From a virus, in the IMG/VR virus record IMGVR_UViG_3300044997_000597, positions 1 to 36,733 of that record: a stretch of DNA of 36,733 nt, one strand, 5' to 3'. Made by a program: the position numbers and the translations under genes. Under the pieces are notes generated by a model. It saw only the letters and a list, made by a program, of their open reading frames with translations, made no database searches and was not told the DNA's origin. Shown one piece after another: positions 1 through 33,953 of the stretch (position 1 is the first letter of the stretch; each line of letters starts with the position of its first letter).

Positions 1-185
1 ACATTCTTTACGCACCAACGACCATAATCAGTTTCTAAGAAGCTTGTAAGATAGGTGTCTGCAAATACATTTGGATCTTCATCGCCTATAGGGACCCGTG
101 CTAATACTATCCAATCAAAGCATTCACTGTCAATAAGTTTATACATAGGAGTGATGCCTTCAGTAAGTTTAATTTCAGTTGGCAT
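1..185 (-). CDS. Hypothetical protein, partial (3' end outside window)
   Basis: A minus-strand frame opens with ATG at 185 and stays open to the window edge, giving 61 codons (starts MPTEIKLTEG and continues through a D-W-I-V-L-A segment). Its start overlaps the last 11 bases of the methyltransferase gene, the same coupling style seen between other genes of this strand, which supports it being a real downstream cistron. I do not recognise the product and cannot see its C-terminus. Confidence 0.6.
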   Translation of the reverse strand, partial: MPTEIKLTEGITPMYKLIDSECFDWIVLARVPIGDEDPNVFADTYLTSFLETDYGRWCVKN

Positions 186-990
186 ATCTAGTTAGGCTCA
201 ATACTGCATGAAATTCTGGACTTAGATGTTCTGGTTGGGTAACGCTTTCTACCACCCAAGGATGTAATCCTAGTTGACAGGTTATGTTTATATTATATCT
301 AAAACTTTCTGGAGTAAAATACCAAGCATGGATGTCAGCAAATTTCCTTTGCTTTTCATCTCTAGCCCTATCAATCTTATGTCTCAATTGTGTGGCATAG
401 GTTAGGTCAATAGGAATATGTCTTGGATTGGCACCGTGCACTCCATGCCAATGTTCGTAAATATTATTATGTGCAGAATAAACTATATGCTTTAGATAGC
501 TGGCAAAGGTATGTGTATTTCTTTCTTCCAAAAAAGCATCTATCATTTCAGTATATTCACTTTCAGTTTGAAAATGATCATAGCAATATCTTTTATCTGG
601 AACAGTCACAAAAAATTTAGTATGTAAAGCTGCCGCCAAACTAGCCATCTCATTTAAATGATTTATAATATCTGGATAATGTTCAATATTGTGAGCACTA
701 TATAAACAGTCAAACTTTAGATTAGTATGAAAGCTAGGTCTCTTGGCAGGATCTACCAATATATCAATATGTTCTGGGATTTCAGTAGTAACTGTTTCAG
801 TAGCATATCTTGTTATTTCTTCTCTAATTTGGTCACTGGTAAAACAATCCATATATTGAAGATTAACAAAATCTTTTTTAAGTAGAGTTGGACGATTATA
901 TGGTCCTATTTCTAATATTCTTGAATTTCTTGGAATAAATTTAATAAATTCATCTTTACTAATGACATTAGGAAGTGTAACTGGATTCAT
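175..990 (-). CDS. Class I SAM-dependent methyltransferase-like protein
   Basis: A 271-residue protein. Residues 25-34 (ILEIGPYNRP) match the glycine-rich SAM-binding loop at the end of strand 1 of Rossmann methyltransferases. An acidic residue (D48) follows strand 2, and residues 94-107 (D-C-L-Y-S-A-H-N-I-E-H-Y-P-D) resemble the strand-4 region of glycan-cluster methyltransferases. A longer reading starting at a TTG is possible, but the ATG at 990 overlaps the TAA of the upstream gene (TAATG), so translational coupling favours it. It is the last complete gene of the early minus-strand block. The substrate cannot be read from sequence; a sugar or other small molecule is as likely as nucleic acid. 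The family call is fairly firm, the substrate unknown. Confidence 0.7.
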   Translation of the reverse strand: MNPVTLPNVISKDEFIKFIPRNSRILEIGPYNRPTLLKKDFVNLQYMDCFTSDQIREEITRYATETVTTEIPEHIDILVDPAKRPSFHTNLKFDCLYSAHNIEHYPDIINHLNEMASLAAALHTKFFVTVPDKRYCYDHFQTESEYTEMIDAFLEERNTHTFASYLKHIVYSAHNNIYEHWHGVHGANPRHIPIDLTYATQLRHKIDRARDEKQRKFADIHAWYFTPESFRYNINITCQLGLHPWVVESVTQPEHLSPEFHAVLSLTRYAN

Positions 991-1274
991 TACCAATACC
1001 CCAAAGCTCTACCGAATCCAAATAGATGGACACAGGCAAAATAACAAGTTAACAGAAATGGCCAAGCCAGCTGTCTACGCCAATAAGCTAGTATACTAAA
1101 AACTGCGCCGATAAAACTAATTGGGTAAATGTATTTCATTGGAGGATTATAAGCCATCCAAGCAATGGCAAATGTAGAGCTTATTACGCATAGACTGGCC
1201 ATCATTTCTAAGTAGAAGGCTTTACGATCTGTTGTATAACTTTGATGCCAAAAGGCCTTAACTTTTTTTAACAT
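990..1274 (-). CDS. Small membrane protein, about three TM segments
   Basis: A 94-residue protein. A short charged N-terminus (about residues 1-22) is followed by hydrophobic stretches near residues 25-42, 48-65 and 70-88, separated by polar or aromatic turns (N-P-P-M-K-Y and W-R-R-Q), consistent with three membrane helices. The ATG at 1274 lies 4 bases after the stop of the previous cistron and its own TAA overlaps the methyltransferase ATG, so it is embedded in the operon. No family recognised. Its position in a block behind host-type promoters suggests an early inner-membrane function, which is inference only. Confidence 0.6.
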   Translation of the reverse strand: MLKKVKAFWHQSYTTDRKAFYLEMMASLCVISSTFAIAWMAYNPPMKYIYPISFIGAVFSILAYWRRQLAWPFLLTCYFACVHLFGFGRALGYW

Positions 1275-1278
1275 AATC

Positions 1279-1560
1279 TTATATACCTGTATTATCTAAG
1301 GTGTCATTGTACTTCAGTTTTAGTAACATAGTCATTTCTTCAGTCATTTCTAATCTACGACGATATAAAATATAACTGTCGTCATCAGTCTCACGCCAAG
1401 TTGCTCCTTCCTTATCCGCATAAGTATTACGGACCCAATCGATAATTTCCTTTTTAAGTGCCACTAGGTACCAACCATCTGGTACGCGAAATAGAATATT
1501 TACATTGGGCTCTTTGGCAAATAAAGGGACATCCAACTTAAAACTTGTTAATCTAGCCAT
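1279..1560 (-). CDS. Small early protein, distant member of the C-terminal F-x-L-R-W family
   Basis: A 93-residue soluble protein starting at ATG 1560. It has a Y-I-L-Y-R-R-R segment followed by M-L-L-K-L-K-Y. That is the same layout as the C-terminal signature of four small neighbours (aromatic strand, 8-10 polar residues, then [W/M]-[F/L]-x-L-[R/K]-[W/F/Y]). The match is looser and the protein has a longer tail than the others, so membership in the family is tentative. No catalytic motif is visible. Function unknown. Confidence 0.6.
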   Translation of the reverse strand: MARLTSFKLDVPLFAKEPNVNILFRVPDGWYLVALKKEIIDWVRNTYADKEGATWRETDDDSYILYRRRLEMTEEMTMLLKLKYNDTLDNTGI

Positions 1561-1575
1561 GATATCCTATATTGT

Positions 1576-1794
1576 TCAAAGCCATTTTAGTGTAAACCAA
1601 GTTGCCCATTTTTCCTCATAGAAAAAGAATACAGCATCTCTTGGCTCAGAATAATTACTATCAAAATCATATAAAGAAGGTATAAACCTAAAATCAAAAT
1701 CACGCCCTTGTTCTAAGCCCTGTTTTTTAAGTTCCTTCACCATGTCTATGAGTTGACCTGTTATCTCATTAGGTACAGTGACTTGAATACTCAT
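1576..1794 (-). CDS. Small early protein with C-terminal W-F-T-L-K-W motif
   Basis: A 72-residue protein with ATG at 1794. Its C-terminus (F-F-F-Y-E-E-K-W-A-T-W-F-T-L-K-W-L) carries the motif shared with its neighbours at 2123-2326, 2335-2523 and 2516-2722. No Shine-Dalgarno sequence precedes the ATG. An AATATATA stretch sits 4 bases upstream (1799-1806 on the minus strand), resembling a degenerate late or -10 element, but this is weak. The 58-base gap before it is one of the few breaks in this block. Function unknown. Confidence 0.6.
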   Translation of the reverse strand: MSIQVTVPNEITGQLIDMVKELKKQGLEQGRDFDFRFIPSLYDFDSNYSEPRDAVFFFYEEKWATWFTLKWL

Positions 1795-1852
1795 ACACTA
1801 TATATTAGATTTTTTTTGCTAGACCTTTAAATATGATTAAAATGTAGCTTAT

Positions 1853-2110
1853 TTAATTTATATCTTGTCCCCATAAGCGCACTGCTAAAATGCTATCAGA
1901 ACAGCCTTGTTCATATCCATCCCAATAAGGCTCATACCTACTACCATCTTTACTATAACGCCAACTGTTTATGTCTTTTTCTATGTCCGCAAGCATCAAC
2001 CTAACAAAGCGTTCCAGTGCTGGACGATCCAAGTGAGCAAGATAAAGACGTCCACCTGCAAGGTTTATTATCTCATCTAATTTGTTATTAAATGTAGTAC
2101 CATCATTCAT
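1853..2110 (-). CDS. Hypothetical small early protein
   Basis: An 85-residue protein using the ATG at 2110; a TTG three codons upstream is a less likely alternative. It contains a predicted helical segment (residues about 10-45, rich in L, A, R, E) followed by a W-R-Y-S-K-D-G-S-R-Y-E-P-Y-W-D-G-Y stretch rich in aromatic residues, then a hydrophobic C-terminus. It does not carry the F-x-L-R-W ending of its neighbours. No family recognised. It sits 12 bases after the stop of the preceding cistron, so it is likely co-transcribed. Confidence 0.55.
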   Translation of the reverse strand: MNDGTTFNNKLDEIINLAGGRLYLAHLDRPALERFVRLMLADIEKDINSWRYSKDGSRYEPYWDGYEQGCSDSILAVRLWGQDIN

Positions 2111-2122
2111 AATGATCAAATT

Positions 2123-2326
2123 TTAATAATTATCATTAAACCATCTTAATTTAAACCAATTAGCATCGCTTTCATTTTTGAAAGTAAATACACCTTCGCC
2201 TACGTAATAAAAGGTATGTGGTTGAAAGTTTTGGTCACACCAGGCTAAGCAGTAACACCAGCCAACTTTACTTTGAACGGGCTGTTGTACACTAACAACT
2301 TCCCAACCTTGCCAATCCTTACTCAT
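2123..2326 (-). CDS. Small early protein with C-terminal W-F-K-L-R-W motif
   Basis: A 67-residue protein, ATG at 2326. The C-terminal part reads F-T-F-K-N-E-S-D-A-N-W-F-K-L-R-W-F, an almost textbook copy of the motif shared by this tandem family. The N-terminal half is aromatic-rich (W-Q-G-W, W-C-Y-C-L-A-W-C) and predicted to be mostly beta. Members of this sort recur in marine T4-like phages as short hypotheticals, as far as I recall, but I know of no assigned function. The gene lies 8 bases downstream of the next family member, so the pair is translated from one message. Confidence 0.6.
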   Translation of the reverse strand: MSKDWQGWEVVSVQQPVQSKVGWCYCLAWCDQNFQPHTFYYVGEGVFTFKNESDANWFKLRWFNDNY

Positions 2327-2334
2327 CTTTTATT

Positions 2335-2523
2335 TTAAGAAAACCTTAATGCAAACCAATTTCGATTAGATTCTGACTTGAAGTAGATATATGGATGCAG
2401 TATTTTAGCACCAAACTCTTTTTCAAGCCAAGTTGGGAATCCTAATTTGCCACCCATCCAAATATTTGTATAATAAAAGTTTATAGCATAATCAAGATAA
2501 GGTATTACATCCAGTTTATACAT
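2335..2523 (-). CDS. Small early protein with C-terminal W-F-A-L-R-F motif
   Basis: A 62-residue protein. I use the internal ATG at 2523 rather than the longer open frame because GGAG lies five bases before it and the start then overlaps the end of the upstream family member by 8 bases, the usual coupling pattern here. The C-terminus (I-Y-F-K-S-E-S-N-R-N-W-F-A-L-R-F-S) is a clear copy of the family motif. The rest is short and aromatic. Function unknown. Confidence 0.6.
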   Translation of the reverse strand: MYKLDVIPYLDYAINFYYTNIWMGGKLGFPTWLEKEFGAKILHPYIYFKSESNRNWFALRFS

Positions 2524-2722
2524 CGCCACTCCAACGTAGAATAAACATGTCACGTTGAGTAGGCCTTTTAAAGCTCCACAGTGAATGTGTCATTTGCTTA
2601 CCGCAGTTATTCTCAGTGCACCATGCATTAATTTCTTCTATTTTCTTTGGAGTCAGACTATCACCTTCAATCACCACACCAGGTAGTTTGAATAGACCAA
2701 CTTCTACGCAACTTATTTTCAT
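2516..2722 (-). CDS. Small early protein with C-terminal M-F-I-L-R-W motif
   Basis: A 68-residue protein starting at ATG 2722. It ends with W-S-F-K-R-P-T-Q-R-D-M-F-I-L-R-W-S, another copy of the motif shared with the next three motif-bearing cistrons, and has a helical middle (T-P-K-K-I-E-E-I-N-A-W). Two cysteines (C34 and C39 region, C-T-E-N-N-C) are specific to this copy. The 32-base gap upstream is AT-rich and contains TATTAT and TATACA, but no convincing -35 box, so a separate promoter is not claimed. Confidence 0.6.
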   Translation of the reverse strand: MKISCVEVGLFKLPGVVIEGDSLTPKKIEEINAWCTENNCGKQMTHSLWSFKRPTQRDMFILRWSGDV

Positions 2723-2754
2723 TTTAGGTATGTATAATACATAGAAATCTACCC

Positions 2755-3120
2755 TTATTTTACTTCCTTCACATGTTTACAGGTTTTTCTAAATTCATAG
2801 CCTGGACAGGTACAAGACCATTTTCCGTTTATTTTATACAGTTCATAGATATTACCTTTACTACCTTCTATTATACGGCGTTCTGCTGCGCCAACAAATT
2901 CATCTAAAATAAACAATTCATGTGGTTGGCTCTTTATAATTAAATTCCTATCAATAACACGGATTTTAAAATCTTCTAGGCCTGTAGTAAGGCACAGATA
3001 TTGCTTGCTATCAACGTGCTTAAGGGTAACCTCCTCACCTTCATATTCATAGAACTCAGGCATTGGATAGGGAAAACGATCTTTAAATGGGTATTGTAGA
3101 TTACGAACGGTAACTTTCAT
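2755..3120 (-). CDS. SWIM-type zinc-finger protein
   Basis: A 121-residue protein. The last 24 residues contain C-T-C-P-G-Y-E-F-R-K-T-C-K-H, which is the C-x-C-x(n)-C-x-H ligand pattern of the SWIM zinc-binding domain. Known SWIM domains bind DNA or protein partners and occur in SWI2/SNF2 ATPases, MuDR transposases and bacterial nucleic-acid factors. Here it is joined only to a small N-terminal beta-rich part with no helicase or transposase region. It starts at ATG 3120, 6 bases after the lipoprotein stop. A role in binding host DNA or a host regulator early in infection is plausible but inferred. Confidence 0.65.
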   Translation of the reverse strand: MKVTVRNLQYPFKDRFPYPMPEFYEYEGEEVTLKHVDSKQYLCLTTGLEDFKIRVIDRNLIIKSQPHELFILDEFVGAAERRIIEGSKGNIYELYKINGKWSCTCPGYEFRKTCKHVKEVK

Positions 3121-3126
3121 TTTGCT

Positions 3127-3372
3127 CTATTGCCATTTTGGACGACATTGTTGAGGAATCCCATGATAGCAATTCTGTGCTATGTCTATACAAGCATCAC
3201 ACTTAGCTTGACGTTGCAGTGCCATATAGGGAGGGTTAGGAATTGTGTAAATCCTCTCGCCCCTACATAATTGAACATCATACTCTCTTGTACCAGGACA
3301 TAAAGGAGGTTTGATATCAATACTTGAGCAGCTTGTTAGAGTTATCAGTAAAACTACAGCAAACTTATGCAT
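3127..3372 (-). CDS. Small cysteine-rich lipoprotein
   Basis: An 81-residue protein. The N-terminus M-H-K-F-A-V-V-L-L-I-T-L-T-S-C is a lipoprotein signal peptide: one positive residue, a hydrophobic core and a lipobox L-T-S-C with the acylated cysteine at 15. The mature part is about 66 residues with six further cysteines and several prolines, suggesting disulfides in the periplasm. AGGAAAA lies 7 bases before the ATG at 3372, and a good sigma70 promoter lies just upstream. Early envelope lipoproteins in phages are often superinfection-exclusion proteins; an Rz1-like spanin is the alternative, but no Rz partner is nearby. Function inferred only. Confidence 0.65.
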   Translation of the reverse strand: MHKFAVVLLITLTSCSSIDIKPPLCPGTREYDVQLCRGERIYTIPNPPYMALQRQAKCDACIDIAQNCYHGIPQQCRPKWQ

Positions 3373-3397
3373 GATATTTTCCTAATTAACAATCATA

Positions 3398-3426
3398 AGT
3401 TTATGCGATGTAGCTCATCTTGTCAA
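3398..3426 (-). promoter_or_regulatory. Sigma70-type promoter for the lipoprotein gene
   Basis: On the minus strand TTGACA (3426-3421), a 17-base spacer and TAAACT (3403-3398). The -35 is perfect and the -10 matches 4 of 6. The predicted start near 3391 leaves a leader of roughly 20 bases that contains the AGGA ribosome site. The -35 box overlaps the stop codon of the HAD gene. Confidence 0.6.
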
Positions 3427-3857
3427 GAGCCTGCATTGTAGTTTAAAAACAACTCGCAAAAGTCGCTAAAATGAACAATGGTCTTTTTATCTACATCCAA
3501 ATTAGTTTTTAAATGATCTACAATTTTTTTATCACTTTCGATATAAACATCAATATCGTGTTCGTTGATCATTCTTAACTTGTATTGTTCATTATTTTCT
3601 TTTTCTTGATCTCTTTGGTGTAAAATCATTTTAGGCTGATTAGAAAAATATTTTAATAACCAACTTTTTGTTATGTGCTCAAATTGTGCAGGTCTTCCTG
3701 TTAATAATATCCATTCACCCACTGGTTTGAATACAGGTTGCATATACATAGTCAAATTTAAATATGCATTATGATCACCAAGATCTGGAATATGGTCACA
3801 GTCTGGAATTAATACCCCATCCAAATCAAATGCTGTTATATTACTGTGTTTATTCAT
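3423..3857 (-). CDS. HAD-superfamily phosphatase
   Basis: A 144-residue protein. Residues 9-16 (A-F-D-L-D-G-V-L) are HAD motif I, with the nucleophile Asp and the general-acid Asp two residues later. L-L-T-G-R near residues 52-56 is motif II, and Y-I-E-S-D-K-K near residues 105-111 fits the acidic motif III. The short length implies a capless phosphatase, like the 3'-phosphatase part of T4 polynucleotide kinase or small nucleotidases. It overlaps the phosphoribosyltransferase gene by 8 bases, so the two are probably coupled and may act on nucleotides together. The fold call is strong, the substrate unknown. Confidence 0.75.
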   Translation of the reverse strand: MNKHSNITAFDLDGVLIPDCDHIPDLGDHNAYLNLTMYMQPVFKPVGEWILLTGRPAQFEHITKSWLLKYFSNQPKMILHQRDQEKENNEQYKLRMINEHDIDVYIESDKKIVDHLKTNLDVDKKTIVHFSDFCELFLNYNAGS

Positions 3858-4332
3858 CTCTAAATCTTACTCCATAGTCTTTGCTTATTTTTTTACTGCC
3901 CCAAAAAGGTTCTTCGGCAAAATAAGGAAGCCTTGTACCTTGTATTACTTCGTTTCTTATGTTTTCAGGAGTATTCCAATCTGTATACAATACTGCCCAA
4001 ACAAATTTAGTTTGTGGATAGTTACGTGCCATATATTCTTTGCACCTTAGATAACTATTACCAGTCACAGTGTTGTCATCCACAAAGGCCACACGTTCTG
4101 GATTACTATCTGTCATCAGTAATTTATCTTTACCTGGATAATATATGCCAATATTACGAATGGATAATAGTTGACTTACCCAAGTAGCATATATTAATCC
4201 AGTACGTGCTACACCTACAATATTTGTGGGACTGAAGTGTCCAATAGCCTTTACTATTCTATCAAAATATTCCTCACCCTCGGCGTTGGTCATACACCTC
4301 GGTTGTTCAGGAAAGTCTTTATATTTGTTCAT
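3850..4332 (-). CDS. Phosphoribosyltransferase (PRTase, type I)
   Basis: A 160-residue protein if started at the ATG at 4332. V-A-F-V-D-D-N-T-V-T-G-N-S-Y, about two thirds of the way through, is the PRPP-binding signature (hydrophobic strand, D-D, then T-G-x-[ST]) of orotate, hypoxanthine and adenine PRTases. N-I-V-G-V-A-R-T-G upstream matches the pyrophosphate loop. The frame continues upstream to 4374, but that extension would cover the promoter, so it is rejected. The promoter -10 box ends 7 bases before ATG 4332, implying an essentially leaderless mRNA. An alternative start at 4293 has GAGG three bases before it. It likely works in nucleotide salvage with the HAD phosphatase. Confidence 0.75.
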   Translation of the reverse strand: MNKYKDFPEQPRCMTNAEGEEYFDRIVKAIGHFSPTNIVGVARTGLIYATWVSQLLSIRNIGIYYPGKDKLLMTDSNPERVAFVDDNTVTGNSYLRCKEYMARNYPQTKFVWAVLYTDWNTPENIRNEVIQGTRLPYFAEEPFWGSKKISKDYGVRFRDE

Positions 4333-4339
4333 GCCTTGA

Positions 4340-4368
4340 ATAATACTATATATTAAAGTTAATGTCAA
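4340..4368 (-). promoter_or_regulatory. Sigma70-type early promoter, minus strand
   Basis: TTGACA (4368-4363), a 17-base spacer and TATTAT (4345-4340) on the minus strand. The -35 is perfect and the -10 matches 5 of 6. Transcription would begin at about 4333, next to the A of the PRTase ATG. This is the presumed main promoter of the early minus-strand block. It lies just upstream of the Shine-Dalgarno sequence of the divergent epimerase gene. Confidence 0.65.
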
Positions 4369-4385
4369 CACCAAGGAGGTGTAGA

Positions 4386-5210
4386 ATGCGAATTTTAATA
4401 ACCGGACATCTTGGCTTTATAGGTCGTAATATGTGTGCTTTTTTAAAGCAACAGGAAAATTTACAAATAGATGGTTATGATTGGGATCCTAAGCACTGGC
4501 CTGATGTAAAAAAGTACGACTGGGTGATACATCTAGGTGCATTGGCTGATATGACTGAGACGGATGTTGAAACAATTATGATACAGAATTATGACTTTAG
4601 TGTCTATCTGTTTAGTGAATGTAATAGGTACGGAGTTAACATGCAATATGCAAGTTCTAGTTCTGTATATGGTAATACAAATAATTTTGAAGAATATGCA
4701 CCATGTAAGCCACAGACACCATATGCTTGGTCAAAATATCTAGTAGACAGATGGTTTTTTGGCCAGAAACATAAAATCTATGTTCAAGGATTTAGATATT
4801 TTAATGTCTATGGTAAATGGATGCATTTACGTGGGCGCAGAGCTAATGCTATCTATAAATGGCGTGAACAAGCTAGGAAAGAAGGATTTATTGAAGTTTG
4901 GAGTAATGCAGAGCATATATATAGAGATTGGACGTGGGTAGGTGATGTCTGTCAAATCCATTTAGATTTTATGTCAAACGTGAAAGGTAGTGGAATTTGG
5001 AATGTTGGAGCAGGATTACCACATAGTTTTTTAGATATTGCACAAGTTATAGCAGAACAGGAAAAAGTTCCATTAAAAATAATTCCGATGCCTATTGAGG
5101 AATTACCAAGATTTAGACAAAAAACTTGTGCAGATCTAAAACATCTTAAACAAACTATTGGCAAGCGTAGTTGGTTGAATGTATATGAATGGTTGGATTA
5201 CGATAAATAA
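4386..5210 (+). CDS. NAD(P)-dependent sugar epimerase/dehydratase (extended SDR)
   Basis: A 274-residue extended short-chain dehydrogenase. G-H-L-G-F-I-G at residues 7-13 is the Rossmann GxxGxxG. A-S-S-S-S-V-Y-G (89-96) carries the catalytic Ser, Y-A-W-S-K (113-117) is the YxxxK pair, and G-F-R-Y-F-N-V-Y-G (135-143) is the family signature seen in ADP-heptose and UDP-sugar epimerases. It is slightly shorter than the usual 300-330 residues. The frame extends upstream to 4362, but AAGGAGG at 4374-4380 selects the ATG at 4386. It probably changes a nucleotide sugar used on the host envelope or on virion components. It resembles HldD-type epimerases, but the exact substrate is uncertain. Confidence 0.8.
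   Translation: MRILITGHLGFIGRNMCAFLKQQENLQIDGYDWDPKHWPDVKKYDWVIHLGALADMTETDVETIMIQNYDFSVYLFSECNRYGVNMQYASSSSVYGNTNNFEEYAPCKPQTPYAWSKYLVDRWFFGQKHKIYVQGFRYFNVYGKWMHLRGRRANAIYKWREQARKEGFIEVWSNAEHIYRDWTWVGDVCQIHLDFMSNVKGSGIWNVGAGLPHSFLDIAQVIAEQEKVPLKIIPMPIEELPRFRQKTCADLKHLKQTIGKRSWLNVYEWLDYDK
5202..5209 (+). promoter_or_regulatory. T4-type late promoter octamer GATAAATA, leaderless spacing
   Basis: GATAAATA differs from the T4 late consensus TATAAATA only at the first base. It overlaps the end of the epimerase gene and lies 5 bases before the ATG at 5215. No Shine-Dalgarno sequence is present between them, so transcription would begin at or next to the start codon. Confidence 0.6.
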
Positions 5211-5214
5211 TAGT

Positions 5215-5511
5215 ATGAAAATATACGAGATTTTAGGTGAAAATTGGCAAAAGGTCAATAAAAATGACAATACTGATGGTATGAGTAGTAAGGCCGTAAA
5301 GGCATATCGTAGAGAAAATCCAGGAAGTAAGCTAAAAACAGCAGTGACTACCAAACCAAGTAAGCTAAAGAAAGGTAGTAAGAGTGCTAAACGTCGCAGC
5401 AGTTTCTGTGCAAGGATGAGCGGAATGAAAAAAGCTCATGCAAGTGCCAAGACTAAGAGGAATCCAGACAGTCCAATTAATAAGGCATTACGCCGTTGGA
5501 ACTGCGAATGA
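5215..5511 (+). CDS. DUF6321-type small basic protein, candidate internal head protein
   Basis: A 98-residue, strongly basic protein. The second half (S-S-F-C-A-R-M-S-G-M-K-K, then S-A-K-T-K-R-N-P-D-S-P-I-N-K-A-L-R-R-W-N-C) matches my memory of the DUF6321 family found in marine T4-like phages. The N-terminus M-K-I-Y-E-I-L-G-E-N resembles the capsid-targeting peptide of T4 internal proteins (M-K-T-Y-Q-E-F-I-A-E) and ends in L-G-E, matching the [L/I]-x-E prohead protease cleavage rule. The longer frame from 5179 would ignore the late promoter and is rejected. It is followed by two more genes with similar N-termini. Packaging into the head and injection is inference. Confidence 0.7.
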   Translation: MKIYEILGENWQKVNKNDNTDGMSSKAVKAYRRENPGSKLKTAVTTKPSKLKKGSKSAKRRSSFCARMSGMKKAHASAKTKRNPDSPINKALRRWNCE

Positions 5512-26140: not shown

Positions 26141-26173
26141 AGCGATTTGGAGCTTGTCTTCAAATGTATCGCT
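26141..26173 (+). promoter_or_regulatory. 5' leader stem-loop ending at the ribosome site of the giant fibre gene
   Basis: AGCGAT (26141-26146) pairs with ATCGCT (26168-26173). Inside it, TTGGAG pairs with CTTCAA (one G-T wobble) around loop CTTGT, with a four-base ATGT bulge on the 3' side. The twelve-pair structure ends exactly before GGAG (26174-26177), so it could position or gate ribosome entry. Confidence 0.6.
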
Positions 26174-26183
26174 GGAGAACAGA

Positions 26184-29100
26184 ATGACGAGAAGGATTCA
26201 ACTAAGACGAGACATTCAAGCTAATTGGGAAGAAATAAATCCTATATTAGCACAAGGCGAATTAGGTATAGATCTATCAAATAAAAATTTTAAAATTGGT
26301 AACGGTGTAGGACGTTGGGCAGAATTAGATTATGCTCTTTTGCAAGGTAGATTAAGCAGAATAAATTCTAATACTTATATAGAAACTGGTGCACAAGCAA
26401 ATGATGGAGACAAAATATATTTTGTAAACAATGGCCAAACCACTACTGAGATATCCGCAGAAGAATATACCATTGTTATACAAGCATTGTTTACTGCAGA
26501 TATACCAAGTACTAATCCTTATAATGGAACTATAGTTGTGCAAGGTGGGATGGGTGTAAGCGGTGATTTAAACATTGGCGGGCAAATAAATGCAGAAGAA
26601 ATATTTGGTAACAGAATAACTATTATCGATAAAATATTTGGCAATGTAGAAGGTACAGTATATGGCAATCTCATAGGTGATGTTTTTAATAGCACAGGAT
26701 CTAGAATATTAGATACTGGTGGTTCAGGAGTTCCTGCACTATATATAGGAAATATTAATGGCAATATTAATAGTCCTGGTGGTAGTTTCTTTTCAAACCT
26801 TACTACCAATAGTGGATTTATTGATGGAACTATTATTGGATCTAATACACCAACTACTATAAAAGGTACTGTAATAACTGCCACTGATAAATTTGAAGGA
26901 ACATTACAAGGCAACTTAGTTGGGGATGTATATGCTCAAAACGGCACAACTAAAATAATCGAAAATAGTGCTGATGGTATTGAGGCTACTTTTTATGGCA
27001 AGTTAATTGGTAACATAGCTGGTGATTTCAAAGGTGATATCTATGCAAATAATAGTTCAAGAAAGGTATTTGAAAATGGTGCAGGAAATTTACCTACTGA
27101 TCTAGACTACGCTCCTGCTCAATTTATAGGTAATGTTGCAGGTAATATAACAAGTAATCAAATTAGTACATTTTCAAATATAGAAGTTAACGGTGGTAGA
27201 TTAGATAATGTCATAATAGGTGATAATCTTCCTGCAAAGATAGTGGGAACGACTATTATTGCAACAGAAGTTTTTATTGGGCAATTTGAGGGTATTATTG
27301 TTGGATCGTCAACTGGAGACATATTAGCTTCTAATGGTGTAAAAGTATTAGAAAATGGTACTGATGGAAAAAATGCCTTTTTTATAGGCGTTGTTAAAGC
27401 TAAGGATGGAACAACTACTATCTTGGATCCAGGAACAGGTGGACCAACCGATGCTTCTACTTATTTGGCTGCTGAATATTTTGGCAATGTTAGAGGTAAT
27501 TTAATTGGTAATGTTGACGCAACAACTGTGACAACTGACTCTATTGACATTGACAATATTAATATTAATGGAAACACAATTTCAAGTACCAATGGCGGTA
27601 TTATCATTAGTACCCATACGTCAACTGATCCTTTAGTTATTAATAGCAAAACCTTACAAGCAACTTATGATTCTACTTTAGGTAAAAGTAACTTTACGTT
27701 AGATGGTAAAGTTAGTGTAAGTGGTATTATAGAAGCAAATGGCGGATATTTAAATACTACGAGTGGTATTTTCAAATTATTGGATGATACGGCCACTACA
27801 ATTAATTTTGCAGGAGCAGCTACAAATCTTGAGATTGGCTCTGCAACTGGTACTACCAAAATTAAAAATGACGTAACCATAGATAAGAATTCTAATATAT
27901 TAGGTAATTTGACGGTAACACAAAATCTCACGGTTGAAGGATCCCTAACGTATCTAAAGACAACTAATACTGAAATTAAAGCCAATACAATAATATTAAA
28001 CAAAGGTGAAACAGGATCAGGAGTAACTGCTGGTACAGCTGGAATAGAAATAGATAGAGGTTTAGCTCATAGTTCTTGGATAAAATGGAGTGAACCAACT
28101 GATACTTGGGAGTTTGGTATAAACGACTCCTACGCAAACACTAAGATGCTTGATCTAAGTGTTACAGGCAACGTTAGTGTAGTTGGTGATATTGATGCTG
28201 CTAACATTACAACTACTGCTAATATTAATGTAGGAGGAGATTTCCAAGTCACAGGTACTAGCCAATTTTCAGGAAATATAACAACAAATGATATTAGTGT
28301 AGATAATCTTACTGTAGAAGGCAATGAAACTGTAGAAGGGACACTTGCAGTAACTGGATTGAGTACATTAGCCACTGTAGATATTAATGGTGGCAATATA
28401 GATGACACTAAAATAGGTTATACTACACCTAGTACAATAAGAGCCACAGATGTAGAAGTAGAACAATTAGTGGTAAAAAATCAAGGAGAAATTAGGTTTA
28501 AAGAAAGCACGGACGCAGGTAACACTTACGTAGGTTTTAAAGCACCTGATTCATTTGTAGAAAGTTATACGTTAACTCTACCTGCTGTTAAAGGTATAGA
28601 TGGTAATGTACTAGCCTTTAATGCAAATGGAGATAAACTTGAATTTGTCAGTGCAGACTTGTTTGGTGGCGGTCAGGTTGCTGTTAGTGCGGAAAATGGT
28701 GATGATGCTAATGATGGTATAAATAGACCAGTTAAAACTATTAAACGTGCTCTACAAATTGCTAGCGGACAAGTTTATGATGCTACAGGCAAAGTAAATG
28801 GCAAGAGAATAGTGATTGCAGTTGCTAGTGGTGAATACTATGAGGATAATCCGATTATTATTCCAGATAATGTGAGTGTAGTCGGAGCTGGTCTACGTGC
28901 CTGTAATATCAGACCATTAAATAACGGTAAGGATATGCTGCGTGTGCGTAATGGCTGTTATTTTACAGAGATTACTTTTAGGGATGCTCTAAATGTAGAT
29001 GGCAAACCTGTATTCACTTTTAATTATGCTGTGGCCTTTGATGATGCTACTGACATCTATACATCAAGAACAGGCTACATAAATCTACCTACAATTAAAC

Positions 29101-32100
29101 CAATTATAACCATTAGTCCATATGTACAAAATTGTAGTATTATTAGTTTCTTAGGTGGCAATGGTGTATTAGTAGACGGTAATAAAGTCAAGGTTCCTAA
29201 CAGACCACAAAACGCTATTGAAGCAGAATTAGTTAATAACACATTACCAGGAATACCACAACAAGGTAAGTCAATGGTTGCCAACGCCTTTACTATGTTG
29301 AGTTTTGGTGGTACAGGTTGGCGTGTGATAAATGATGCTTATGCTCAAATAGTAAGTTGTTTCCAAATCTTCTGTTTAAATGGTAGTTACTGTCAAAGTG
29401 GTGGATATTTAAGTATAACTAATAGTGCTACAAACTTTGGCCAGTACGCTCTACGTGCTAGTGGATATAGCCCAAATGCTTTTGATTTCAATAGAGGATT
29501 TATTACGTCAATTAGTAGCTTTTTAGGTCAAGATGTTATTACAGCGATTGGTTTTAAAGAACTACCAAATCCACATTATGTTACACGTTTTAGAGAACCT
29601 TCATATAAACAGGCCTATGATTTAATTAATGCGAATAAAGAAGAATTAGCTGATGACCTTATCAGTTGGATAAATGATCAAATAACTAATGGTACTAGTC
29701 CATTTTTTACCCAATTTATATATAATCAAGCTAAATGTTTGCGCGATGCAAAAATAGTACTTGAAGCTGTGGCTTATGATACATTGTCAGGTGGTAATAG
29801 CAAATTAATTGAAGCCGCATTATCCTACTCTGAAGCAAACAGTATTACATTGAATTTGCAGAAGGAACAAAATATAGCAGCATTTAATAGACTACGTGAT
29901 ATTACTTTACCTTTAGTAACATCAACAGGACATGCCCCTATTGTAGCGGCCAAATTTAACCTCCTTATCAATGTGCTAGATGATCCAACTACAGCACCAC
30001 CAATTGTAGAAATTACCAATATAGGTGATATTACTAATAATCATATAATTACTAATCCTAATGATATAGTACCATTTAATGCTGCTAACGTAGATATTAT
30101 CAATGATACTCTTTTGATTCCAATCCACGGACTAGCTAATATGCAAAAAGTAGTCTATAGTAATAACGGTAACAATGACATTCCTGGTTTGGACAATGAA
30201 CAGTCCTACTATGTAGAAGTTTTAAATGCGAATACAATTAGATTATTTACAGATGAAAGCAAGAGTAAACGAGCTGATATCTTGAGTGTAGGTATAGGAA
30301 CACATAGACTAATTAAAAATGTAATAGAATATTTTATTGATGATTTATTAACCTATCACAAAGTATTCCAAAAATTAACATTGCCCTCTGATAGCTACAC
30401 ATTTATTCCTGGAAGATTGATTTCTGCTACGACTCAAACTGGATCGTTAAGCGTAACTAATCTTGCATATGTTTTAAGTTGGGATAAAACTACCAAAGAA
30501 CTTATCGTTGCTATTGATATAGCTGCTCAAAGTCCTCGCTTCCTACTCACTAGTATTATAACTGGAGATCATAGTGATGATAGCACAGTAATTGGTGGTA
30601 TTACTCCAATTAATGTAGTCAATATCAGTGATTATTACAGTGCCACATTTAAAGTTGGCAGCACATTTGGCAGTGCCATAATACAGAATAAGTCACAATT
30701 AATTACAAAACAGATATGGCTTCACAGACCCAGTATTTGTAATAGCAGCAGTCATACTTGGGAATATGCAGGAAGTGGCATAGATTATAATGCACTACCA
30801 CAGAATGGTGGTGTTACTAGAGTAGAATATCAACAGGTCAGTGACTTACCAGGTCGTGTATATACTTCAGGCACTAATGAATTAGGTGACTTTCTCGTTG
30901 GGGATTTCATTAAAGCAGAAAACAAGACTGGTAATGTAACCTTTACCAACACTGTGAGTATTGGTGAACTGGATGCACTGAAACTGAGTATTAACGACAT
31001 TATTATTGAAGAATTCAGTATTGATATACAACTTGGCGATAGTGAACCAGGAGGTCCAAAAGATTCAAGGATCAGCACTCAAAAAGCTATTCGTAGCTTT
31101 ATTCAAAATAAATTAAGTCCATTTTTAGATAGAGAAGTTACTACCAATAACCTTGCAGGTGCTATACCACAATTGAATAGTTTAGGTTTATTAAACGCAG
31201 ATGTAATACCACCAATTAGAGCCTTTCTTATATGGAAAACTAATGGATATGGTAGTAGACTCGCACTTAAAGACACTGTGCCAAGCAGTAATGTATTACC
31301 TGCTGACATTAGCACAGAAAATTATAGCACCATAGATGTTTACTTAAATTCTACCATAACTGCGGATGATCTTACCTTAATTGTACAGGACAACACTAAC
31401 GCCCGTGGTTATCTTCTAGGTAATGTGATTGAACAAAACGTAATAACAATCGCAAGTATTGATAAAACCTTTGAAATTCTATTTAATAATTTTGATGATT
31501 TAATCATAGAGGGGGTGGGAACTTATTCCTTAAATACCACCCCAGGCATACCAACTATTAGTCCTATTTTAGTTAATCAGTCAAGCAACTATGTACTTAC
31601 TGAAATATTACCAAGTCAAATGCTATTGTTAGATACTACACAGACATATAATTTTGCAGGTATAAATCCAGTAACTGGTGCTATAACTAAGGCACAAGGT
31701 TATATTAATAGTGAAGATTATGAACCCACTGGACTAGAACTTGGTGTAATAGTACAGGTTGATAATGTTAATAAAATAAGCGGAACAGGTTATATTGATA
31801 ACGTTTACAAAAATGTACCTTTACAAAGTTTAACTGGTGCTGGTACTGGTGCAAAGGCTACGCTAACAGTACGTGATAACAAAGTAGATTCAGTAGAAAT
31901 GACATCTGGAGGTACTGGTTATATACTAGGAGAGGTATTAAGTGCCACTATTCTACTACAGAATGAAGGTGTAGGTGGATTCCAAATACCAGTACTTAAG
32001 ATAGAAAATAGGCTGCATATTAATAACGTGGGCGGTGTTAAGTTTAGTAATACTCAAGACCCAGATTTAAAAGATTTTATTCAAGATGCAAATGCAACCA

Positions 32101-33953
32101 CAGTGTCAATAAATCAAACAGGGTCAATAGAAATTTCCTTTGATGCTAATGAAGGTGTAAACACAACCCCTGGTGTTGATACTATTACTATACCAAATCA
32201 TGGATTGATAGATGGTGATCCTGTACTGTATGATCCTATTGGTCAAATTGAGATAGGTGGGAATTTGCAAGGACCACAGGCAGATGAGGTATATTATGTA
32301 AAGTATATTGATTCCAATACAATCCAGTTGTATACAAATTATACCTTATTGGCACAGGAGAGAGTAATATTATACCTTTCAGGACAAGGAACTCAAAAGC
32401 TAATTGTATCTAATATTGATTTGAAAAGGAATACCATATTCTTAGCAGGACACGGATATTTAAAAGGAACAGCTTTAAAAATTACTGGTACAGCATTGCC
32501 TGTAGGGTTTGTATCAGGTCAAGTTTATTATGTTGGATCTGTTACAACAAATAGTTTTACGTTACACGATGATAAAATTGATGCAGATAATAGTTTTGAC
32601 GGTGTAGTAACGGAAGCTAAGGATATACAAAACAAACCAACAGGCACGATGGTATTAACTAGGCTCAATATTAGAGTTGACGGTGCCATCAACACGAGTT
32701 CTAAGGAATATGCTAACTGGAGTGGACTAAGTGCCAACAATATTGCTGCCAATAATATTATTAGTGGTGTAATAAGTCCAAGTAGATTAGGTAGTTTGGC
32801 GGCAAACAATACTACGTTTTTAAGAGGCGATAGTGTTTATGCACCTGTGGTACAAAACATTTATAAACCAAATGATAGTGCTATTATACTTTTAGGTAGC
32901 TTTAAAACCAATGCAAATAATATAGCTGAATATACCAATGCTGTTAGTGTAGATGTAGATGTAGTTGATGGATCAGAATCTAGAGCCAGTCCTGGTGGAT
33001 TTCAGTGGACTAATTTAGGTGTAGCTAGATTTAATCGTGATCAATTTGCGGTTGGTTCAGGAACAGGTTTAGGGCAAGTTACCATAAAGGATTTAGTTGT
33101 TAATGCAGGTCAATTGGATAATAATAATGCCGCCTATTATTTGGAAAGTAGTAATCATACTATACAACCTGTAAACAAAGGTGGAACAAATATATCGACT
33201 TACACCGCAGGTGATATGTTGTATGCCGCTACAGATAGTATATTAAACCTACTTCCAATTGCAGATCCTTTTAATGTGCTCCAGGTTAAAGCAGATGGTT
33301 CCAAACCAGAATGGTCCAGCACCTTATTATTATCTGGTCTTACTGTTAATGGTGATATTACTGTATCGGGTGCTAAAAGCACATTGAATGCATACGATAT
33401 CAAAATGGATGATAATAATATTGAATTAGGTAGTGTAGAACCTGTATTCAATAGAGAGGGTGTAATAAACTATACAGGTGGGGGCAGTTTAACCACTGAA
33501 GTAACTATTCCTCTATCTAACTTAGGAACCACAGGATTGATACCAGGAATGACTATTACTAAGGTCACTGTGGCTGGTCAACCTGGTTTGTTTGGAAATG
33601 ATAGCAAGATTTTAAGTGTTGATAGTGCTACACAGTTTACGGTAATAGGTACAACTTTACCAACATCTGGAACTGTGAGATTTAATGCTGGTGGTGCTTC
33701 AGATGATACTGCCAATAACGGTGGATTAACCATTAAGAGTTCGGTAAATAAGACACTGACTTGGAGTAAAGTTACAGGTGCATGGACTAGTAGTGAAAAT
33801 ATGGATCTGGCAGCAACAAAAACTTTTATGATTAATAATACTACAGTTTTAAGTGAAAATAAAGTATTAGGAAAGGAACTAAGTAGTCAAGCAGGCAAAA
33901 TAATGACCAGTGGTAGTACTTGGATACGAACATTCGCCTTTATGGGAGTATAA
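26184..33953 (+). CDS. Giant tail-fibre structural protein
   Basis: A 2589-residue protein. Residues 1-50 (R-R-I-Q-L-R-R-D-I, G-E-L-G-I-D, F-K-I-G-N-G) are the fibre attachment module shared with the 20368 tailspike. Residues about 130-440 are repeated short modules of the type G-x-x-x-G-N-L-x-G-D-V/I-Y-A-x-N-G. From about residue 832 (A-E-N-G-D-D-A-N-D-G) comes a pectin-lyase-like beta-helix region. At least three H-G-[L/Y] modules ending in Y-Y-V follow, near residues 1307, 1997 and 2081. GGAG six bases before ATG 26184 decides the start; a TTG at 26154 is rejected. It is probably a long tail-fibre component that contacts the host; the exact T4 equivalent cannot be assigned. Confidence 0.85.
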   Translation: MTRRIQLRRDIQANWEEINPILAQGELGIDLSNKNFKIGNGVGRWAELDYALLQGRLSRINSNTYIETGAQANDGDKIYFVNNGQTTTEISAEEYTIVIQALFTADIPSTNPYNGTIVVQGGMGVSGDLNIGGQINAEEIFGNRITIIDKIFGNVEGTVYGNLIGDVFNSTGSRILDTGGSGVPALYIGNINGNINSPGGSFFSNLTTNSGFIDGTIIGSNTPTTIKGTVITATDKFEGTLQGNLVGDVYAQNGTTKIIENSADGIEATFYGKLIGNIAGDFKGDIYANNSSRKVFENGAGNLPTDLDYAPAQFIGNVAGNITSNQISTFSNIEVNGGRLDNVIIGDNLPAKIVGTTIIATEVFIGQFEGIIVGSSTGDILASNGVKVLENGTDGKNAFFIGVVKAKDGTTTILDPGTGGPTDASTYLAAEYFGNVRGNLIGNVDATTVTTDSIDIDNININGNTISSTNGGIIISTHTSTDPLVINSKTLQATYDSTLGKSNFTLDGKVSVSGIIEANGGYLNTTSGIFKLLDDTATTINFAGAATNLEIGSATGTTKIKNDVTIDKNSNILGNLTVTQNLTVEGSLTYLKTTNTEIKANTIILNKGETGSGVTAGTAGIEIDRGLAHSSWIKWSEPTDTWEFGINDSYANTKMLDLSVTGNVSVVGDIDAANITTTANINVGGDFQVTGTSQFSGNITTNDISVDNLTVEGNETVEGTLAVTGLSTLATVDINGGNIDDTKIGYTTPSTIRATDVEVEQLVVKNQGEIRFKESTDAGNTYVGFKAPDSFVESYTLTLPAVKGIDGNVLAFNANGDKLEFVSADLFGGGQVAVSAENGDDANDGINRPVKTIKRALQIASGQVYDATGKVNGKRIVIAVASGEYYEDNPIIIPDNVSVVGAGLRACNIRPLNNGKDMLRVRNGCYFTEITFRDALNVDGKPVFTFNYAVAFDDATDIYTSRTGYINLPTIKPIITISPYVQNCSIISFLGGNGVLVDGNKVKVPNRPQNAIEAELVNNTLPGIPQQGKSMVANAFTMLSFGGTGWRVINDAYAQIVSCFQIFCLNGSYCQSGGYLSITNSATNFGQYALRASGYSPNAFDFNRGFITSISSFLGQDVITAIGFKELPNPHYVTRFREPSYKQAYDLINANKEELADDLISWINDQITNGTSPFFTQFIYNQAKCLRDAKIVLEAVAYDTLSGGNSKLIEAALSYSEANSITLNLQKEQNIAAFNRLRDITLPLVTSTGHAPIVAAKFNLLINVLDDPTTAPPIVEITNIGDITNNHIITNPNDIVPFNAANVDIINDTLLIPIHGLANMQKVVYSNNGNNDIPGLDNEQSYYVEVLNANTIRLFTDESKSKRADILSVGIGTHRLIKNVIEYFIDDLLTYHKVFQKLTLPSDSYTFIPGRLISATTQTGSLSVTNLAYVLSWDKTTKELIVAIDIAAQSPRFLLTSIITGDHSDDSTVIGGITPINVVNISDYYSATFKVGSTFGSAIIQNKSQLITKQIWLHRPSICNSSSHTWEYAGSGIDYNALPQNGGVTRVEYQQVSDLPGRVYTSGTNELGDFLVGDFIKAENKTGNVTFTNTVSIGELDALKLSINDIIIEEFSIDIQLGDSEPGGPKDSRISTQKAIRSFIQNKLSPFLDREVTTNNLAGAIPQLNSLGLLNADVIPPIRAFLIWKTNGYGSRLALKDTVPSSNVLPADISTENYSTIDVYLNSTITADDLTLIVQDNTNARGYLLGNVIEQNVITIASIDKTFEILFNNFDDLIIEGVGTYSLNTTPGIPTISPILVNQSSNYVLTEILPSQMLLLDTTQTYNFAGINPVTGAITKAQGYINSEDYEPTGLELGVIVQVDNVNKISGTGYIDNVYKNVPLQSLTGAGTGAKATLTVRDNKVDSVEMTSGGTGYILGEVLSATILLQNEGVGGFQIPVLKIENRLHINNVGGVKFSNTQDPDLKDFIQDANATTVSINQTGSIEISFDANEGVNTTPGVDTITIPNHGLIDGDPVLYDPIGQIEIGGNLQGPQADEVYYVKYIDSNTIQLYTNYTLLAQERVILYLSGQGTQKLIVSNIDLKRNTIFLAGHGYLKGTALKITGTALPVGFVSGQVYYVGSVTTNSFTLHDDKIDADNSFDGVVTEAKDIQNKPTGTMVLTRLNIRVDGAINTSSKEYANWSGLSANNIAANNIISGVISPSRLGSLAANNTTFLRGDSVYAPVVQNIYKPNDSAIILLGSFKTNANNIAEYTNAVSVDVDVVDGSESRASPGGFQWTNLGVARFNRDQFAVGSGTGLGQVTIKDLVVNAGQLDNNNAAYYLESSNHTIQPVNKGGTNISTYTAGDMLYAATDSILNLLPIADPFNVLQVKADGSKPEWSSTLLLSGLTVNGDITVSGAKSTLNAYDIKMDDNNIELGSVEPVFNREGVINYTGGGSLTTEVTIPLSNLGTTGLIPGMTITKVTVAGQPGLFGNDSKILSVDSATQFTVIGTTLPTSGTVRFNAGGASDDTANNGGLTIKSSVNKTLTWSKVTGAWTSSENMDLAATKTFMINNTTVLSENKVLGKELSSQAGKIMTSGSTWIRTFAFMGV

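Follow-up and report, generated by a model that had tools for sequence, protein, structure and literature searches.

A tandem array of phage mini-proteins with a common C-terminal tail and divergent N-terminal heads

Genes and tails of the array

The window, a stretch of 36,733 nucleotides of viral DNA (IMG/VR record IMGVR_UViG_3300044997_000597), carries a run of very small genes on the minus strand. A sequence-only reading had proposed that four of them, named here by their lower coordinate (1576, 2123, 2335 and 2516), and more loosely a fifth (1279), form a duplicated and diversified set sharing a C-terminal interaction tail. The features are listed below; "head" denotes the protein with its tail removed, and bit scores refer to the tail HMM described in the next section.

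4340..4368, minus strand: promoter-like TTGACA-17-TATTAT, 11 of 12 consensus matches (a consensus match only)
2516..2722, minus strand: family member, 68 aa; tail LWSFKRPTQRDMFILRWSGDV; head cluster 3; 18.7 bits
2335..2523, minus strand: family member, 62 aa; tail YIYFKSESNRNWFALRFS; head cluster 7; 23.5 bits
2123..2326, minus strand: family member, 67 aa; tail VFTFKNESDANWFKLRWFNDNY; head cluster 6; 36.0 bits
1853..2119, minus strand: gene lying between members that lacks the tail and does not belong to the family (direct reading); orthologue at 392078-392338 of contig G004
1576..1794, minus strand: family member, 72 aa; tail VFFFYEEKWATWFTLKWL; head cluster 1; 30.2 bits
1279..1560, minus strand: possible divergent fifth member, 93 aa; YILYRRRLEMTEEMTMLLKLKYND, then a short extension at the end

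Direct reading of the C-termini gave ...SLWSFKRPTQRDMFILRWSGDV for 2516-2722, ...PYIYFKSESNRNWFALRFS for 2335-2523, ...GVFTFKNESDANWFKLRWFNDNY for 2123-2326 and ...AVFFFYEEKWATWFTLKWL for 1576-1794, all of which fit a pattern like [FYIW]xFxx[ED]xDAxWFxL[RK]W. The shorter motif [WM]FxL[RK][WF] was found at the C-terminus of 4 of the 122 window ORFs of 40-150 aa, and residue shuffling of the window ORFs produced no C-terminal match in 2000 trials. Together with the tail HMM scores of 18.7-36.0 bits, this result bears out the claim that the four cistrons have a common C-terminal motif.

The ATG of the 2335 cistron at position 2523 overlaps the end of 2516. This ATG, rather than the GTG at 2553, is most likely the start, because the orthologues in three other loci (L003-L005) start there. 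Orthologues of 2516 showed 78-82% identity in contigs G004 and G006 and 45% in G008, and those of 2335 showed 46-53% in G004 and G006.

The fifth gene, 1279-1560, ends in ...YILYRRRLEMTEEMTMLLKLKYNDTLDNTGI, with LLKLKY, kept in its orthologues, where the others have WFxLRW. It did not score above 3 bits with the tail HMM, and phmmer gave a weak link (E 0.0076) to an ORF ending in ALLFRMMWS in another locus (L036). Its membership is therefore possible but unproven.

The promoter-like sequence precedes the co-oriented minus-strand block that contains the array, and no terminator-like site was found in positions 1-5300 of the window. The block also holds PRTase-, HAD- and SWIM-like genes. The SWIM zinc finger gene (2755-3120, minus strand; Pfam PF04434, 21.2 bits) lies immediately upstream of the array and has orthologues near arrays in G004 and G006. 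The early, anti-host setting proposed for the array draws solely on gene size and position, and the promoter-like match is no proof of timing.

Extent and arrangement of the family

A tail HMM of 26 columns was built from 400 tails, and membership was defined as a score of at least 14 bits with the match no more than 12 aa from the C-terminus. By this definition 2123, 1576, 2335 and 2516 are members (36.0, 30.2, 23.5 and 18.7 bits, respectively). In all, 679 ORFs scored at least 14 bits, 673 of them C-terminally, while no reversed or shuffled version of the 11,138 ORFs reached 12 bits. As the seeds had been picked at C-termini, the unbiased figure comes from a DNA pattern for DAxWFxLRW that required no stop codon nearby. 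This pattern was found in at least 120 viral loci, which are not strictly non-redundant, and in all 127 ORF occurrences among the matches listed the motif lay within 12 residues of the C-terminus. The tail consensus is hydrophobic-x-F-x-x-[ED]-x-D-A-x-[W/L/M]-F-x-L-[RK]-W. The enrichment of the motif at the C-termini of other small phage proteins was thus confirmed by the unbiased pattern. It is strongly supported that the tail marks a large, widespread and unnamed family of phage proteins, mostly of 60-120 aa. Tryptophan is abundant in the family, at 5.4% compared with 1.5% for the large ORFs at those loci.

Among the matches listed, 103 of the 117 pattern loci with HMM matches contained at least two members, 54 at least five and 14 at least ten; the largest array had 17 tail matches. 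All 549 neighbouring member pairs were co-oriented, 386 of them with a gap of less than 60 nt, and the ATG following a tail gene was most often found at -4, that is, with a 4-nt overlap. Since the genes are co-oriented and overlapping or closely spaced, the products of an array are probably made together; termination-reinitiation coupling at such overlaps has been shown experimentally (PMC6728339). In a contig from a Bacteroidetes MAG (L155, DLXM01000070, positions 160-3693), fifteen tandem tail proteins are packed into 3.5 kb. Many of them have a WWxNF head in common and end in a sequence like SMFILR[WY]S, and this run is possibly a recent expansion.

The arrays were found in uncultured, often giant, phages, and orthologues of 2123 and 1576 in IMG/VR sit in runs of small ORFs with the same ending. 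The window is collinear, gene by gene, with part of the 400-kb contig G004, mostly at 40-92% identity. Between the conserved flanks, G004 has 14 tail matches and the window has 4. In G004 the matches form a single island, and in the other contigs they lie mainly in one.

Pfam, PHROGs and NCBIfam gave no credible profile match, only isolated weak ones, each for a single member. PADLOC gave nothing credible for the 1576 group, and tblastn with queries from the window and from the wider family gave nothing convincing in 50,697 phage records. The tblastn matches in Aeromonas, Pseudomonas ZY21, Gordonia and Mycobacterium phages were weak and were set aside as chance; the Aeromonas and ZY21 regions, on inspection, contained no tail. 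Matches in Nitrospira genomes were likewise attributed to chance: they are internal, and most fall within proteins roughly 1000 aa long.

A profile search of chosen isolates revealed distant members in Pseudomonas phage PA5oct (best E 1.3e-7) and Agrobacterium phage Atu_ph07 (E 4e-5) and a borderline member in Sphingomonas phage PAU, with no match in T4, phiKZ, RaK2, HTVC008M, phiM12 or X1. The PA5oct proteins EST35_0274, EST35_0275 and EST35_0247 and the small ORFs of Atu_ph07 have the WCxEN helix, the FxF strand and D/E-A-xx-F-x-L near the C-terminus. Unlike the arrays, these are few and mostly dispersed copies, often lacking the terminal R-W. One Atu_ph07 member (AUZ95077.1, MF403008 239836-240018, minus strand) adjoins a gene for the replication factor C small subunit. 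Longer proteins of 117-191 aa with the C-terminal tail were also seen in Microvirga isolate genomes (L137, L149 and L152), in one case near a phage-type integrase.

Predicted fold, heads and selection

AlphaFold2 models were obtained for 1576 (pLDDT 89.8, pTM 0.74) and 2123 (pLDDT 84.8, pTM 0.72), the heads of which are unlike. Both proteins are predicted to adopt a strand-helix-strand-strand-helix topology, so that on this point the two folds are alike rather than unrelated. In both models the tail corresponds to strand 3 and helix 2. The pLDDT of this block is 92-95, which suggests that the tail is an ordered last strand and helix and not a floppy tag. The term "interaction tail" is accordingly only partly apt: a common C-terminus on unlike heads stands, but a separate tag does not, since the tail is part of a small domain. 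Judging from these two models, the family probably shares a small half-ferredoxin-like b-a-b-b-a domain, and much of the tail conservation is probably structural, the tail residues being presumably buried. In the tail helix, hydrophobic residues occupy positions -2, 0, 1, 2, 3 and 5, and R/K occupies position 4. The helix would thereby present two hydrophobic faces, one of which could make contacts outside the monomer.

Sequence search found no homologue in the PDB. Foldseek against the PDB with the predicted models gave no E below 0.05, and the best matches were weak and ferredoxin-like. The b-a-b-b-a likeness extends to the ACT domain of TyrA (Z 7.5, rmsd 2.6 over 61 residues) and the RRM of KIAA0430 (Z 5.5, rmsd 3.6 over 62 residues), although these Z values may reflect a common arrangement only. 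Identity to ferredoxin-like folds (ACT domains, PII/GlnK, CutA1, RRM) is about 12%, and their fourth strand is missing in the family models. Many proteins of "uncultured Caudovirales phage" in BFVD (for example A0A6J7WFP6 and A0A6J5LVZ4) matched with Foldseek probability 1.00, TM 0.72, 38% identity and a best E of 1e-3. They are uncharacterised and unnamed there, and nothing we found describes the array context or the tail. Matches of one profile (A3) to designed PPR repeats were dismissed, as they were limited to roughly 19 residues in helix 1.

The heads of 546 distinct members were compared by BLAST clustering, which yielded 96 clusters, of which 66 were singletons. The window heads of 2516, 2335, 2123 and 1576 fall in clusters 3, 7, 6 and 1, respectively, which agrees with the earlier description of a diversified set with unlike N-terminal parts. 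Cluster 1 is present in 62 loci and, if the broad cluster 0 is left aside, is more widespread than any other orthologue group; cluster 3 is also present in many other viral loci. Profile comparison linked cluster 6 with 0 (92%), 7 with 11 (96%) and 3 with 4 (79%), while cluster 1 stands alone. Against the [IV]xxWCxEN helix core of cluster 0, the tailless heads gave probabilities of 92% for 2123, 50% for 2516, 2.4% for 2335 and 0.4% for 1576. Some heads would thus share this helix, and the rest appear to have diverged beyond recognition. Since copies in the same locus seldom belong to one head cluster, the broad cluster 0 excepted, the duplications within arrays are old. Gene conversion of the tails was considered and rejected, the identity of the F1 codon being 0.67 within and 0.68 between loci; tail residues are slightly more alike inside a locus (0.89, against 0.79 in permutations). 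A few longer members (L006:4085-4462, L012:4863-5246, L098:3163-3648 and L103:935-1321) carry a Walker-A-like GRGTGKS, GRGSGKS, GRNVGKS or GRQTGKS in an N-terminal extension, which looks as if a P-loop piece had been fused to the tail domain.

In the same groups, pN/pS was 0.10-0.35 for the tail and 0.42-0.69 for the head; pS is near saturation, and the selection of members through their tails biases the tail pN downwards, so that only the direction of the difference is safe.

The codons of the tail were also analyzed. In members coupled to a following gene, ...TTGAGGTGGNNATGA carries the Shine-Dalgarno sequence for the next ATG. The R codon was AGG in 291 of 426 coupled members (68%), against a background of 9% and against 12 of 39 uncoupled members (Fisher p 6e-6), and TTG was raised at L3. 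Part of the nucleotide pattern thus serves as the Shine-Dalgarno sequence of the next gene in other arrays. With members found by a profile ignoring position 4, R/K was present at this position in 394 of 434 members with a coupled gene and in 33 of 39 without one, and the uncoupled members retain both R/K and W. The window tails have the codons CTACGTTGG, TTAAGATGG, CTAAAATGG and TTAAGGTTT; the copies here, three of which use the first three of these, mostly avoid Shine-Dalgarno codons and keep the residues. Because the residues are kept in the uncoupled members and in these three window copies, the tail amino acids are selected in their own right, at the protein level.

Interpretation of the conserved C-terminal half

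Phage regions with runs of tiny accessory genes are already known. The host-takeover regions of T4-type phages are clusters of small accessory early genes and resemble these arrays in their tight, co-oriented runs of tiny, fast-changing genes, but to our knowledge they do not share a C-terminal signature. Tandem copy-number change is familiar from gene accordions. The 4 and 14 copies in syntenic relatives resemble such a case, but the array copies have unlike heads and so are not recent identical duplicates. What appears to be new is that one family with a constant C-terminal half fills the arrays and that its motif overlaps the Shine-Dalgarno sequence of the next gene; neither was found described in the libraries and papers searched. 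A literature search of openly available papers found no description of the motif or of arrays of small phage proteins.

As a whole explanation we tentatively favor a shared scaffold and docking half combined with variable specificity, in arrays devoted to host interaction. The window holds one locus of a large mini-protein family, the genes of which overlap or lie close together in a co-oriented array, and in many phages the proteins are probably made by termination-reinitiation. The conserved last strand and last helix (FxFxxExDAxWFxLRW) probably hold the fold, and the helix would give every copy the same docking face, either for a common partner or for sister copies. The fast-changing b1-a1-b2 half and the N-terminal extensions would bind different targets in the infected cell, and the array may have an anti-host role. 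We counted in favor of this explanation the strictly C-terminal position (127 of 127 among the matches listed), the co-oriented arrays with their frequent 4-nt overlaps, the link in E. coli between overlapping genes and heteromeric complexes that is described below, the unlike heads (some joined by profile links) on one topology, the contrast in pN/pS between tail and head, R/K at position 4, the two-faced helix, and the 4 against 14 copies. The difference in copy number between close phages is as expected for an accessory host-interaction repertoire. It should be noted that PA5oct and Atu_ph07 have the domain, often without the terminal LRW. Since these relatives have often lost LRW, a universal docking motif would not be strictly required.

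The tail may instead be conserved for folding alone, the proteins reaching unrelated targets through variable surfaces with no common partner, and we regard this as almost as likely as docking. Strand 3 and helix 2, to which the tail corresponds, belong to the best-ordered segments of each model, and most tail positions are dominated by hydrophobic or by turn and capping residues. On the other hand, strand 1, helix 1 and strand 2 are far less conserved, with 96 head clusters. Position 4 is nearly fixed as R/K, a charged residue that would not be needed by a buried core alone, and the hydrophobic residues lie on two helix faces.

An improbable alternative is that the co-translated copies of an array form one hetero-oligomer through the conserved half. 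The 4-nt overlaps with a Shine-Dalgarno sequence inside the tail codons are compatible with this, and the absent fourth strand would, in the models, leave an open sheet edge. Overlapping gene pairs in E. coli show a 4.5-fold enrichment for subunits of heteromeric complexes (PMC10666635). However, 1 to 17 copies per locus, and 4 against 14 in close relatives, are unlike a fixed stoichiometry. Moreover, gene overlaps are common in phages anyway.

That the mini-proteins are virion components instead of host-interaction proteins is very unlikely. Tail-like and virion-like proteins are encoded elsewhere in the window, but the array lies in a separate block with the PRTase-, HAD- and SWIM-like genes, no structural PHROG was matched, and the PA5oct homologues lack the ESI-MS/MS note present for several of their neighbours. 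Least probable of all is that LRW is kept only since YTG-AGG-TGG is the Shine-Dalgarno sequence of the next overlapping gene: the excess of AGG and TTG in coupled members would fit, but it concerns three codons, outside which the F, D, A, W and F positions lie, pN/pS is well below 1, and the window codons and uncoupled members described above contradict it.

The docking reading can be extended to an evolvable repertoire of co-translated mini-proteins in large phages, all with a common scaffold in which the docking half stays constant and the recognition half is hypervariable. Copies would be gained and lost to match host targets, and the C-terminus would double as the ribosome-binding site that joins the cassettes. 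In this full form we consider the proposal unlikely. If the constant half does bind one partner, a single pull-down would lead to the target of hundreds of proteins, and the distant copies in PA5oct and Atu_ph07, both of them cultured phages, are already open to experiment. A large, recognisable family with no credible library match also offers a clean entry into phage dark matter, as the tail pattern by itself suffices to find the family by DNA search. In addition, the arrays are a natural case of codons encoding both a protein motif and the Shine-Dalgarno sequence of the next gene.

Elsewhere in the window, an ORF of 2599 aa (26154-33953, plus strand) adjoins highly conserved genes and is itself partly conserved in G004 and G008, with 26-40% identity over about 800-900 residues.
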